NCBI RefSeq assembly: GCF_900156745.1
Contig: NZ_LT707065.1
Location: forward strand, 4,278,001-4,342,000
Direction: 5' to 3'
DNA: 64,000 nt
From: Achromobacter sp. MFA1 R4
GTDB taxonomy: Bacteria; Pseudomonadota; Gammaproteobacteria; Burkholderiales; Burkholderiaceae_B
The notes below the pieces were generated by a model. The model searched no databases, had not been told where the DNA came from, and was given only the letters and a program-made list of their open reading frames with translations. Shown here piece after piece: positions 25,404-28,620 of the stretch. The translations under genes and the position numbers were made by a program. Positions within the stretch are counted from its first letter, which is position 1; every line of letters starts with the position of its first letter.

Positions 25404-25862
25404 ATGGCCCTCAAAGTTTTTGACCTTCAGTGCGACCACAGCCACGTCTTCGAAGGCTGGTTCTCGTCGCACGACGACTACGACGCGCAACAGGCGCGTG
25501 GCCTCGTCACGTGCCCGGTCTGCGGGTCGGCCAGCATTACCAAGCGCCTGTCCGCGCCCCGCCTGAACGTGGCCCACCTGCACGCGCCGGCAGCCCAGCC
25601 GCCCGCGCCCGCCGGCGGATCCGACGCCGAAAAAATGGCGGCCCTGCAAGCCGCCGTCATGCGCCAGGTGCGCGCCCTGGTGCGCAACACCGAAAACGTC
25701 GGCCCCCGCTTCGCCGAGGAAGCCCGTCGCATCCACGAAGGCGACGCCGACGACCGCCCCATCCGTGGCACCGCCACCCGCGAAGAACGCGAATCCCTGG
25801 CCGAAGACGGCATCGACGTCATGGCCGTGCCGGACTTCCTGGACGACGAACGCCTGCAGTAA
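25404..25862 (+). CDS. DUF1178 family zinc-ribbon-like protein
   Basis: 152-residue protein of unknown function. The N-terminus, FDLQCDHSHVFEGWFSSHDDYDAQQ followed by CPVCGS, is typical of DUF1178 and could bind zinc through Cys residues; a Pro/Ala-rich linker and an acidic C-terminal half with RFAEEARRIHEG and REERESLAEDGI follow. These conserved sections identify the family but not a function. A TATTCT near 25371 may be its -10. It ends 143 bases before the AbiE-like unit and has the GC bias of the host genes. Confidence 0.85.
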   Translation: MALKVFDLQCDHSHVFEGWFSSHDDYDAQQARGLVTCPVCGSASITKRLSAPRLNVAHLHAPAAQPPAPAGGSDAEKMAALQAAVMRQVRALVRNTENVGPRFAEEARRIHEGDADDRPIRGTATREERESLAEDGIDVMAVPDFLDDERLQ

Positions 25863-25923
25863 GGGGCCGGCTGCGGGAGGCGTGGGACCGGCTTATGCAG
25901 TGATTTTGGCTTTTTCGCTGTGC

Positions 25924-25960
25924 AGCGAATATATGTATTTCGCCGAATATTCGCTATATT
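25924..25960 (+). promoter_or_regulatory. Promoter and palindromic operator of the AbiE-like unit
   Basis: Perfect 9-bp arms AGCGAATAT (25924-25932) and ATATTCGCT (25947-25955) face each other, and a 10-bp palindrome CGAATATTCG (25944-25953) is nested in the right half. A TATATT hexamer (25955-25960) that could be the -10 overlaps the end, 46 bases before the ATG. Binding here would block transcription, as expected for autoregulation by the winged-helix first gene. No good -35 is visible. Confidence 0.6.
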
Positions 25961-26005
25961 CTCCCGACATTCCTGATTTTCGCCCAGTTGAGAACAGCGG
26001 CCCTC

Positions 26006-27085
26006 ATGTCGAAAACTACCGTGCCGGAACAGGCGTTGATCGGACAGCTCCTGGAGTCACTCCAGGCGTTGCCTGACGTGCGCGTGGCGTCGACCCGGGC
26101 AGCACCTGGGGTGCAGGGCGCCAACCCTGTCGATGCCAGGATCGATCTGCGGGTCGCGGGCAAGTCGGTCGTTCTGCTGGTCGAGGTCAAGAAGTCCGTC
26201 TATCCCCGGGATGCGCGTCAATGGCTGTGGCAATTGAGGTCGCTACAGCCGGGCCAAAACGCCGATGTCCAGCCTCTGCTGGTGGCGGAGTCGCTTTCAA
26301 GCGGGGCGAAAGAACTGCTCAGAAGCGAGCGGGTCGGCTACTTCGATAGCGGCGGAAGCCTGTTCCTGCCGGCCGCGGGTGCCTTCATCTACATCGACAG
26401 GCCGGCGCCGAAGGTGCTGGACAAGTCGGTCCGGTCGCTGTTCTCGTCGCGGCGTGCCCAGGTCTTGCACGCCCTCCTGGACGATCACGATAAATGGTTT
26501 GGCGTTAACGACGTGGCTGGTCGTGCGCAGGTGGCGCCATCTACCGCCTCGGACGTGTTAAGTCAGCTGGAGCGGTTCGATTGGCTGGAGTCGCGTGGGC
26601 AAGGGCCCAATAAGACGCGCCATCTCCGCGAACCGGCTGCGTTGCTCGATGCGTGGGCAAAACAGGTCGCCACGCAGCCGGCGCCGGCGCAGCGCCGGTA
26701 TTTTGTGCCCGCTCTGAAGTCCGAGGCGTTGATCGAACGGCTCGCTCAGTCTTGCGATGCGCATCAGGTGGATTACGCGGTGAGCTACGAAGCGGCTGCG
26801 CAGCGCTATGCGCCGTTCTTGTCCGGTATTTCCCAGGTGCGCGTTCGACTGCAGCCCGGACCTGGCGCCGAGTTGGCAATGGCCGAGTTGGGCGCGCGTG
26901 TCGTCAATGAAGGCGCTAACCTCGCGGTCGTCGATTCGACCTCGGCCGGAGCGCTGCTTTTCCGGCGACACGTTGGCGATGTCTGGCTGGCCAGTCCGGT
27001 CCAGGTGTATCTCGATCTGCTGCAGGCAGAAGGCCGCGCCAAGGAAATGGCCCAGCACCTGCGCCAGGAGAGGATCGGTTTCTGA
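26006..27085 (+). CDS. AbiEi-like antitoxin/regulator with N-terminal nuclease-like region and winged helix
   Basis: 359-residue protein, probably the antitoxin and repressor of a type IV (AbiE-like) pair. Residues about 40-130 look like a restriction-endonuclease-like fold: DARIDLRV then LLVEVKK gives D...E60-x-K62, followed by GYFDSGGSLFL. Residues about 148-210 form a winged helix (LHALLDD...FGVNDVAGRAQVAPSTASDVLSQLERFDWLESRG). The C-terminal part ends with WLASPVQVYLDLLQAEGRAKEMAQHLR, the pattern I associate with AbiEi-type C-termini. Whether the E-x-K is catalytic is unknown. A TTG at 25988 is an alternative start. It overlaps the next gene by one base (TGATG). Codon use is less GC-biased than in the flanking genes, suggesting horizontal acquisition. 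Confidence 0.7.
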   Translation: MSKTTVPEQALIGQLLESLQALPDVRVASTRAAPGVQGANPVDARIDLRVAGKSVVLLVEVKKSVYPRDARQWLWQLRSLQPGQNADVQPLLVAESLSSGAKELLRSERVGYFDSGGSLFLPAAGAFIYIDRPAPKVLDKSVRSLFSSRRAQVLHALLDDHDKWFGVNDVAGRAQVAPSTASDVLSQLERFDWLESRGQGPNKTRHLREPAALLDAWAKQVATQPAPAQRRYFVPALKSEALIERLAQSCDAHQVDYAVSYEAAAQRYAPFLSGISQVRVRLQPGPGAELAMAELGARVVNEGANLAVVDSTSAGALLFRRHVGDVWLASPVQVYLDLLQAEGRAKEMAQHLRQERIGF

Positions 27086-27993
27086 TGGCAAAGCCCGCGA
27101 CGTTGGATGGCTATAGCGACCAGTACACGACGGACTGCGAACGTCTCCTCGTGACGTTGCTGCGGGGACTGGGACCGTGGAAAGATTCGATCTATCTGAT
27201 CGGGGGGCTGACGCCGCGATATCTCGTTGCGGCTCGTCCCCCGGTTGTGCCTGCGCACGCTGGAACGCTGGACGTGGACCTCGTGATCGACCTGCAGATC
27301 CTGGCCGACACCGATGCGTATCACACACTCGAAGACAACCTGAAGAAGATGGGCTTCGAGCGAGCCGAGAACGCCGCCGGTGCAAAGTTGTCCTGGCGGT
27401 GGCAGACCCGCACTGAACATGGCGCGCTGATGGTGTTGGAGTTGCTGGCGGACGCGCCGGAGATCGCCGGCGGCAAGGTACAGCCATTGCCGACCGATGG
27501 CACGATCTCTGCATTGAATATTCCCTATTTGTCCATTGTTTTCGACCTTCATCAAGTCACCGAGATTCAGGCCGAACTATTGGGCGGCAATGGAATCGCC
27601 ACAGAACGGATCAAGCATGCGAACCTGGTGAGCTTTACCTGTCTGAAGGTGTTTGCATTCGATCAGCGCTTCGAACGCAAGGATGCCCACGATCTGGTCT
27701 ATTGCATCGAGCATGCGTCCGAAGGACTGGATGCCGTGGCTGCGGCGTTTCACAAGGAGCGCGAGGGCAGGCATAGGGGCGTTGTGGAGGCCTCTTTGGC
27801 GATCCTGCGCAGTCGCTTCGCGAGCGATGCGACCGCCGAAGGCTATCGCAAGGACGGTCCCGTGTCGGTCGCTAAGTTCGAGCTGGGTGAGGGCGACGAG
27901 CCAGAGCAGCGCGAGGCAAGGATGTTGCGGCAGCGGCAGGCCAGCGACGTGATCGAACGGCTTCTTTCTCGAATCGGCCCGGCACTCACTTAG
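27085..27993 (+). CDS. AbiEii/AbiGii-like nucleotidyltransferase, predicted toxin
   Basis: 302-residue protein with a minimal nucleotidyltransferase fold. IGG (G40-G41) is followed by TLDVDLVIDL, giving the two metal-binding Asp (D63, D65), and ELLAD near 119-123 may supply the third acidic residue. The helical part contains KVFAFDQRFERKDAHDL (K188 to about residue 204), matching the K...R..KD..DL signature of AbiEii-type toxins. Relatives in the AbiEii/MenT group add nucleotides to RNA, blocking growth. The start overlaps the upstream stop as TGATG. A window of it (27541-27600) is 32/60 G+C, against 39/60 in a window of the neighbouring DUF1178 gene. It ends 20 bases before a bidirectional terminator. 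Confidence 0.72.
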   Translation: MAKPATLDGYSDQYTTDCERLLVTLLRGLGPWKDSIYLIGGLTPRYLVAARPPVVPAHAGTLDVDLVIDLQILADTDAYHTLEDNLKKMGFERAENAAGAKLSWRWQTRTEHGALMVLELLADAPEIAGGKVQPLPTDGTISALNIPYLSIVFDLHQVTEIQAELLGGNGIATERIKHANLVSFTCLKVFAFDQRFERKDAHDLVYCIEHASEGLDAVAAAFHKEREGRHRGVVEASLAILRSRFASDATAEGYRKDGPVSVAKFELGEGDEPEQREARMLRQRQASDVIERLLSRIGPALT

Positions 27994-28012: not shown

Positions 28013-28046
28013 AAAAAAAAGCCAGACCGCAAGGTCTGGCTTTTTT
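28013..28046. terminator. Bidirectional intrinsic terminator
   Basis: A-tract 28013-28020, stem GCCAGACC (28021-28028), loop GCAA, stem GGTCTGGC (28033-28040), T-tract 28041-28046. Works for the AbiE-like unit on the plus strand and efp on the minus strand. Confidence 0.95.
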
Positions 28047-28059
28047 GCGCTGGGCCGGA

Positions 28060-28620
28060 TCAGTTGTTGACGCGGCTGCGGTATTCGTTCGTGCGGGTGT
28101 CGATTTCGATCTTGTCGCCGATGGCGCAGAACAGCGGCACGTTCAGTTCGTAGCCGGTGTTGATCTTGGCCGGCTTGGTCACCTTGCCCGAGGTGTCGCC
28201 ACGGACGGCGGGTTCGGTGTAGGTGATTTCGCGAACGATGGTGGTGGGCAGTTCAACCGAGATGGCGCGGCCGTCGTAGAAGACCACTTCCACGGGCATC
28301 GCTTCTTCCAGGTAGTTCAGGGCGTCGCCCATGCTTTCGGCTTCGATTTCGTACTGGTTGTACTCTTCGTCCATGAAGACGTACATCGGGTCGCCGAAGT
28401 AGGAATACGTGCATTCCTTGCGATCCAGTTGGACGACTTCGAACTTTTCGTCAGCCTTGTAGACCGATTCGCTGGCCGAGGCGGTCAGCAGGTTCTTGAA
28501 CTTCAGCTTGACGACGGCCGCGTTGCGGCCCGACTTGTTGTATTCGGCCTTCTGGACCACGAGGGGATCCTTGCCGACCATGACCACGTTGCCGACTCGC
28601 AATTCCTGAGCGGTTTTCAT
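28060..28620 (-). CDS. efp: Elongation factor P
   Basis: 186-residue tRNA-mimicking factor that rescues ribosomes stalled at polyproline. The KOW-like domain I has the loop YNKSGRNAA with Arg at position 32, the arginine-rhamnosylated type, not the Lys34 type modified by EpmA. OB domains follow, with the C-terminal [17 protein letters not shown]. The frame is open to 28686, but homologous sequence begins with [11 protein letters not shown] at 28620 behind a GGAG. The modifying enzyme gene earP lies immediately upstream on the same strand. Confidence 0.97.

Follow-up and report, generated by a model that had tools for sequence, protein, structure and literature searches.

Between a zinc-ribbon gene, which we take to be of the DUF1178-like family, and the gene for elongation factor P (EF-P), the chromosome of Achromobacter sp. 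MFA1 R4 carries two overlapping genes that raise two questions: what kind of module do they form, and what is the role of the nuclease-like domain at the start of the first? A sequence-only reading of the window (the whole stretch of 64,000 nucleotides that was analysed) had proposed an AbiE-like defence or toxin-antitoxin unit with a nuclease-like antitoxin. Here, the architecture of the pair, its predicted folds, the conservation of its operator and gene overlap, its patchy distribution and the defence genes in the neighbourhood of its relatives were computed. By its profile matches and predicted folds, the pair falls into the COG4861-type arm of toxin-antitoxin systems of the AbiE/MenAT kind, and we consider it probable that it is a horizontally acquired module of this type, most likely serving in abortive-infection defence.

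Layout of the locus

The two ORFs (26006-27085, 359 aa, and 27085-27993, 302 aa) meet in the junction TGATG, with the lengths and overlap that had been read from the sequence. The regulator comes first and an overlapping nucleotidyltransferase (NTase) second, which is the two-gene operon expected of AbiE, and the overlap probably couples translation of the two genes. The features of the pair and its right flank are as follows.

26006..27085, plus strand: AbiEi-type (PF09952) antitoxin, 359 aa; PF09952 26.3 bits, cut-off 21
26006..26410, plus strand: N-terminal PD-(D/E)xK-fold domain in the predicted model, residues 1-135, with D43, E60 and K62
26423..26671, plus strand: winged helix-turn-helix domain, residues about 140-222, from profile and fold matches
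26711..27082, plus strand: C-terminal AbiEi domain with nucleotidyltransferase-like fold, residues 236-359, from fold matches
27083..27087, plus strand: TGATG stop/start overlap; TGATG or TAATG in 64 of the 75 related loci with enough downstream DNA
27085..27993, plus strand: AbiEii/MenT-type nucleotidyltransferase, predicted toxin, 302 aa, with GG40-41, T61-x-D63-x-D65, K188 and K199-D200
28013..28045 (about), no strand: terminator-like inverted repeat; pair-less sister genomes have a similar one

The DUF1178-like gene on the left ends at 25862, while EF-P on the right (28060-28620) is encoded on the strand opposite to the pair. The pair has a GC content of 62.4%, compared to a mean of 67.8% (sd 2.2) over 124 two-kb windows, only two of which are lower, in line with the lower GC noted earlier. 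The claim of a terminator stood in part: the inverted repeat at about 28013-28045 exists, although it is absent from the terminator list of the consensus scan, but since a similar repeat separates both flanking genes in pair-less sister genomes, it belongs to the resident EF-P locus and not to the module.

Architecture of the antitoxin and its partner

In its AlphaFold2 model (pLDDT 85.7, pTM 0.62) the antitoxin is predicted to consist of three domains: an N-terminal PD-(D/E)xK fold, a winged helix and an NTase-like AbiEi C-terminus. Among 65 aligned members of the antitoxin family, PF09952 was matched by 58 and HTH_IclR, for the winged helix, by 59 (both at E<=0.1). In the structure search the winged helix model returned numerous MarR/ArsR folds, and the C-terminal model matched AbiEi itself, MenT1 and adenylyltransferases. 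Adenylyltransferases and a fungal NTase are also given as AbiEi matches in the available part of Beck et al. 2020 (PMC7319586), and the same ones were matched here. The winged-helix antitoxin with an AbiEi-type C-terminus proposed from the sequence was therefore upheld, by PF09952 above its cut-off and by the fold matches; this is also the domain combination of AbiE antitoxins. Sequence searches against solved structures with the antitoxin family found chiefly winged-helix proteins, and 1511 of the 8000 scored proteins were homologues of protein 1 at E<=1e-3. A profile-profile comparison of both proteins gave nothing for a common descent of antitoxin C-terminus and toxin (probability 0.2), so the NTase-like fold common to the two is drawn from structure matches only.

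The second protein contains GG40-41...D63-V-D65 and K188...ERKDAHDL as originally described, and its model matches MenT1 and MenT3 across most of its length; motifs and MenT-fold model together bear out the nucleotidyltransferase partner. T61 precedes D63 by two residues, as T39 precedes D41 in MenT1, and is invariant among relatives (35/35 and 121/121). According to the available text of PMC11375011, the threonine of T-x-D is the auto-phosphorylation position of MenT1, where T39 is not essential for antitoxicity, and phosphorylation was not found for MenT4 with its AbiEi-like antitoxin. At the profile level the window NTase matched no Pfam family even at E<=10 (PF08843 included), no NCBIfam family of its kind, and PADLOC AbiEii weakly (E 0.017); the PADLOC matches of both window proteins were weak and were left out of their naming. 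PF08843 (AbiEii) was matched by three of 35 NTase relatives at E<=0.1, and the motifs and the MenT fold were found. Solved-structure sequence searches with the toxin family gave nothing meaningful, whereas 2286 of 7837 scored proteins were homologues of protein 2 at E<=1e-3.

The N-terminal nuclease-fold domain

The restriction-endonuclease-like N-terminus was borne out by structure prediction. The predicted model of the domain contains the alpha-beta-beta-beta-alpha-beta core of the PD-(D/E)xK superfamily, and EndoMS/NucS chains were its sole Foldseek matches with E under 0.001. E60 and K62 are present as had been written, and with D43 they supply the window copy with the D...(D/E)xK active site; judging from the hairpin symmetry in the model, D43 would lie opposite E60, with K62 two residues further. 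D47, considered as an alternative catalytic aspartate for its presumed resemblance to NucS motifs, was rejected, as it is D in just 53 of 121 close relatives compared to 110 of 121 for D43. Membership of the NucS family itself was not found: NCBIfam NucS scored the window antitoxin at E 0.16 and 11 bits against a cut-off of 216, and was matched by three of 65 relatives at E<=1. That the domain is the unusual part of the pair holds for its nuclease-like fold, but the fold is also present in the aligned relatives and is no peculiarity of this copy.

Close relatives have the triad D43/E60/K62 intact in 94 of 121 cases, members of the structure alignment in 49 of 65 and diverse members in 16 of 25, counting D in place of E as intact and including the window protein each time. 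K to R is the sole change in ten of the 27 close relatives with an incomplete triad. P67-R68, on the other hand, is kept in 121/121, 65/65 and 24/25 of the same sets, and A94 and S98 in all members of the three alignments, across phyla. Residues 1-65 are the least alignable part of the protein. At first the nuclease motif had seemed degenerate beyond the close clade, a view that the 25-member diverse alignment softened.

With a triad that is often incomplete beside nearly invariant P67-R68, A94 and S98, it is unlikely that the relatives have cutting as their common core function. A structural or sensing role fits this pattern better than an obligatory nuclease does, although copies with an intact triad, including that of the window, may be active. 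Since the lysine is lost too often for essential cutting and the triad kept too often for a useless relic, ligand binding or sensing, with catalysis optional, is the role we favour, as a guess from conservation.

Operator and promoter

Upstream of the first gene, the following features were found.

25914..25929, no strand: operator box 1, TTCGCTG-TG-CAGCGAA, matching the box common to relatives
25943..25954, no strand: middle palindrome CCGAATATTCGC, its centre 27 bp from that of box 1, at the same position in the relatives' consensus
25955..25960, plus strand: likely -10 element TATATT, aligning with the relatives' TA.aaT
25968..25983, no strand: expected place of operator box 2, unrecognisable at +54 (11 mismatches of 14)

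The relatives' box has the consensus TTYRCTG-NN-CAGYRAA with the core CTG-NN-CAG. With at most two mismatches allowed, two boxes were present in 62 of 76 unique upstream regions (80 related loci plus the window, duplicates merged), one in ten and none in four, compared to no case of two boxes and 40 of one box in 1520 shuffled controls. The spacing is exactly 54 bp in 61 of the 62 two-box regions, and the middle palindrome, with the consensus cgAATATTCG, lies 27 bp from either box and adjoins TA.aaT. Of its 12 positions, 8.7 are on average self-complementary, compared to 1.8 in a control stretch next to it (59 unique blocks). As for the four box-less regions, L025, L088 and L090 had been taken at a wrong start and L085 is a gene fragment; with improved starts, CTG-NN-CAG flanked by different arms appears in L088 and L090. 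The exact box is kept in two Chloroflexi relatives (36-38% identity), while some of the more distant relatives have CTG-NN-CAG with other arms and several of the more distant plasmid and genus loci have no recognisable box.

The 9-bp-arm palindrome proposed at 25924-25955 exists, but it is made up of the right half of box 1 and the middle palindrome, box 1 and the middle palindrome being the better-supported features. TATATT is proposed as -10 element from its alignment, as the consensus scan listed no sigma-70 promoter upstream of the pair. The inverted repeats over the promoter that characterise AbiE are thus present as a putative operator, with box 2 missing in the window copy. A poor candidate for it (five mismatches) occurs at 25979 with a spacing of 65, 11 bp or about one helical turn beyond the expected place. 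The absence of box 2 suggests that autorepression of the window copy may be impaired, and that this copy may be under relaxed control.

The exact box TTCGCTGNNCAGCGAA occurs once in the 6.2-Mb genome. A genome-wide search gave, besides this exact place, three places with one mismatch, and none in a backward control; as these numbers are close to chance by a rough estimate, no regulon is claimed. Antitoxin residues 177, 179 and 183, in the recognition helix (window 26534-26554), differ between loci whose boxes are mainly of the CG type and the other loci (17 vs 35). This hint of protein-DNA co-evolution is a lead, the relatedness of the loci not being controlled for.

Distribution and mobility

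A homologue was found in ten of 43 genomes of the genus, none above 37% identity apart from the window's own, and in all ten loci an NTase relative adjoins, split into two ORFs in one of them (L008). EF-P was located in 41 genus genomes, of which 30 loci were fetched; one is the window's own and the other 29 were compared. EF-P and the DUF1178-like gene are separated by up to 150 bp in 25 of these, by 379-509 bp in two and by 1346 bp in one, and in one the DUF1178-like gene was not found within the fetched stretch. As 27 of these 29 sister loci have nothing in the gap, the pair is identified as an insertion. The presence of the pair is thus patchy in the genus and far from universal at this locus, and horizontal acquisition, as proposed from the sequence, was upheld by computation. 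The two sister loci with the 1346-bp distance and without the DUF1178-like gene carry other ORFs at this place (L131:2108-3312 and L135:2365-3557), by eye PadR-regulator-like with a second one, and MarR-like with UvrA-like, respectively; given also the two gaps of 379-509 bp, this is possibly a small insertion hot spot.

Across the phylum, PF09952 was found in six of 398 genomes, the window's own included, while the antitoxin profile matched 35 of 398, in all but three places via the winged helix alone. Among 72,556 plasmid records, relatives of protein 1 occur in 76, of which 35 are predicted to be conjugative, and relatives of protein 2 in 61. Of eleven plasmid regions, nine have a second gene annotated directly downstream, one is unannotated there, and one (Pseudomonas sp. 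HS-18) has none listed. None of 50,697 phage records had a relative, and of 43 pattern matches in viral contigs none was confirmed as one.

For the related loci, the best 80 of 130 were used. The first-gene ORF was present in 78 of these 80, with a full-length NTase directly downstream in 68 of the 78, which, together with the frequent stop/start overlap, supports the AbiE-like pairing that had been claimed. In the other ten, no single frame contains a full NTase; three of these loci lie at a contig end. In L063 (7074-7172) and L076 (7095-7163) the first-gene ORF is present, the NTase match stops after 33 and 23 positions and the contig continues; from their sequence, these are perhaps solitary antitoxins. 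Pairs that are 98-100% identical occur in records titled Paraburkholderia, Variovorax, Lysobacteraceae and Stenotrophomonas (the second and third being metagenome bins), which points to recent transfer.

Defence genes near related loci

Of the 80 related loci, 20 have relatives of Qat, Gabija or Hachiman genes in the flanking DNA (up to 6 kb on either side), with relatives of QatA in twelve, GajA in three and HamA in five, whereas the other 60 had none of the three systems searched. Five defence genes named by PADLOC served as queries; on control DNA (the window and the EF-P loci) they gave one weak helicase match, this control being smaller (171 kb vs 896 kb) and from one genus. The counts treat near-identical loci separately (L037, L039, L041, L043 and L082, with pairs 98-100% identical) and include short matches in L011 and L055 (39 and 50 aa), while a weak GajB-only match in L078 was excluded. 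A Delftia plasmid carries qatABC downstream of the pair in its public annotation. Four loci have a Cas4-like ORF immediately before the pair (L081:5038-5832, similar in L016, L017 and L038); the one tested, in L081, matched PADLOC Cas4 at E 1.9e-5.

Proposed mechanism and alternative explanations

For toxicity, RNA target, neutralisation chemistry and trigger, we infer the following course. The free NTase of gene 2 would add nucleotides to cellular RNA, by analogy with MenT perhaps at the tRNA acceptor end, and growth would stop. The antitoxin of gene 1, probably dimeric, would repress the shared promoter through its winged helix at the multi-site operator, while its NTase-like C-terminal domain would silence the toxin, plausibly via auto-phosphorylation of T61 beside the DxD site. 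Engagement of DNA, or of another phage- or damage-derived ligand, by the NucS-like N-terminal domain would then release the toxin. The antitoxin might in this way be a DNA guard, whose NucS-like (pseudo-)nuclease inspects mismatched, branched or phage replication DNA and upon engagement frees operator and toxin and turns the RNA-modifying NTase on; we hold this idea to be unlikely, but if true, COG4861-type AbiE modules would switch on abortive infection by sensing DNA, the antitoxin itself containing the trigger.

Other roles of the N-terminal domain turn on the same conservation data. As an active nuclease it would make the antitoxin an effector as well, cutting invading or damaged DNA with the NTase as one arm of the response. 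The intact triad of the window copy and of most close and diverse relatives, and a fold shared with a real nuclease, NucS/EndoMS, speak for this; yet residue 62 is not K in nine of 25 diverse relatives that otherwise keep P67-R68 (24/25) and S98 (25/25), some sister-species members have lost D, E or K, and PF01939 (NucS_C) has no match in the whole genome at E<=0.001, so that we regard an effector nuclease as distinctly unlikely. The opposite extreme, a fold relic that merely dimerises or serves as scaffold and senses nothing, would suit the incomplete triad of between one quarter and one third of the relatives and the poorly alignable residues 1-65, a number of plasmid-borne relatives aligning from 66-67 onward. 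It seems somewhat unlikely to us, given that P67-R68, A94 and S98 are kept across phyla and the triad in more relatives than expected for a pure relic.

The module as a whole could also be an addiction or maintenance system of plasmids and islands instead of phage defence. The 76 plasmid records with a protein 1 relative, nearly half of them predicted conjugative, agree with this, as does the stabilisation of a plasmid by AbiE, reported in the available text of PMC3985639. Against it stand the Qat, Gabija and Hachiman relatives near a quarter of the related loci and the chromosomal position of the pair here, where no integrase was noticed by eye among the neighbouring ORFs in the window; maintenance is nevertheless a real possibility, if short of a probable one. 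Finally, the pair might be no toxin-antitoxin system at all, its winged-helix protein being the repressor of a housekeeping-like NTase. Conservation of the NTase is far stronger than that of the regulator, unlike the case of many toxins: in the 119 relatives listed (window's own excluded), identities are 82-91% for the NTase and 64-75%, with one at 96%, for the regulator. In view of the patchy distribution, the mobility and a MenT fold with its catalytic residues kept, we consider this explanation very improbable.

Comparison with known systems

The literature consulted describes the kind of module to which the pair belongs. AbiE has been ranked fourth in abundance among phage-defence systems (PMC11375011, available part). 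Dy et al. 2014 named an AbiE relative in the COG4861-COG4849 pair (PMC3985639), the COG4861 proteins include Rv0837c of M. tuberculosis (PMC7319586), and a table of PMC7251935 equates PF09952 with COG4861, all as given in the available parts of these papers. The suggestion of an underdescribed system holds in part: the pairing was catalogued in 2014, but no description of a nuclease-fold domain on AbiEi/COG4861-type antitoxins was found in the accessible literature, which was searched largely without subscription papers. Within the literature searched, the three-domain antitoxin and the rigid operator appear undescribed.

Closest by description are the COG4861-COG4849 pairs (AbiEi_2 PF09952 with a DUF1814 NTase, including Rv0837c-Rv0836c, MenAT2), which have a PF09952 C-terminus and an NTase directly downstream, as here, and are predicted toxin-antitoxin systems of the AbiE kind in the available text of PMC3985639 and PMC3968373; the window antitoxin is likened to them by PF09952. 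The accessible text on these pairs mentions neither a nuclease-fold N-terminus nor a boxed operator, both of which are present here. AbiE of Streptococcus agalactiae (AbiEi COG5340/AbiEii COG2253) resembles the pair in its two-gene operon, the inverted repeats over its promoter, an antitoxin with a winged helix and NTase-like C-terminus, and an NTase toxin. Its AbiEi, however, is described in the text available as a two-domain protein without a nuclease-fold domain that binds 23-3-23 bp repeats, whereas here the antitoxin has three predicted domains and the boxes stand 54 bp apart around a middle palindrome; AbiEii profiles match the window NTase weakly. MenAT1 and MenAT3 share the MenT fold with the window toxin, and MenT1 also the T-x-D auto-phosphorylation position, but their antitoxins are of other families. 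NucS/EndoMS resembles the N-terminal domain in fold and in D...E-x-K, and differs in partner domains and operon, with no family-level sequence match. In the parts of the literature consulted, the trigger of AbiE is not stated and the COG4861 arm is little covered; the conserved nuclease-fold domain of the antitoxin makes the question of the trigger accessible to testing, and modules of this type can be searched for in genomes, and verified, by their rigid operator.
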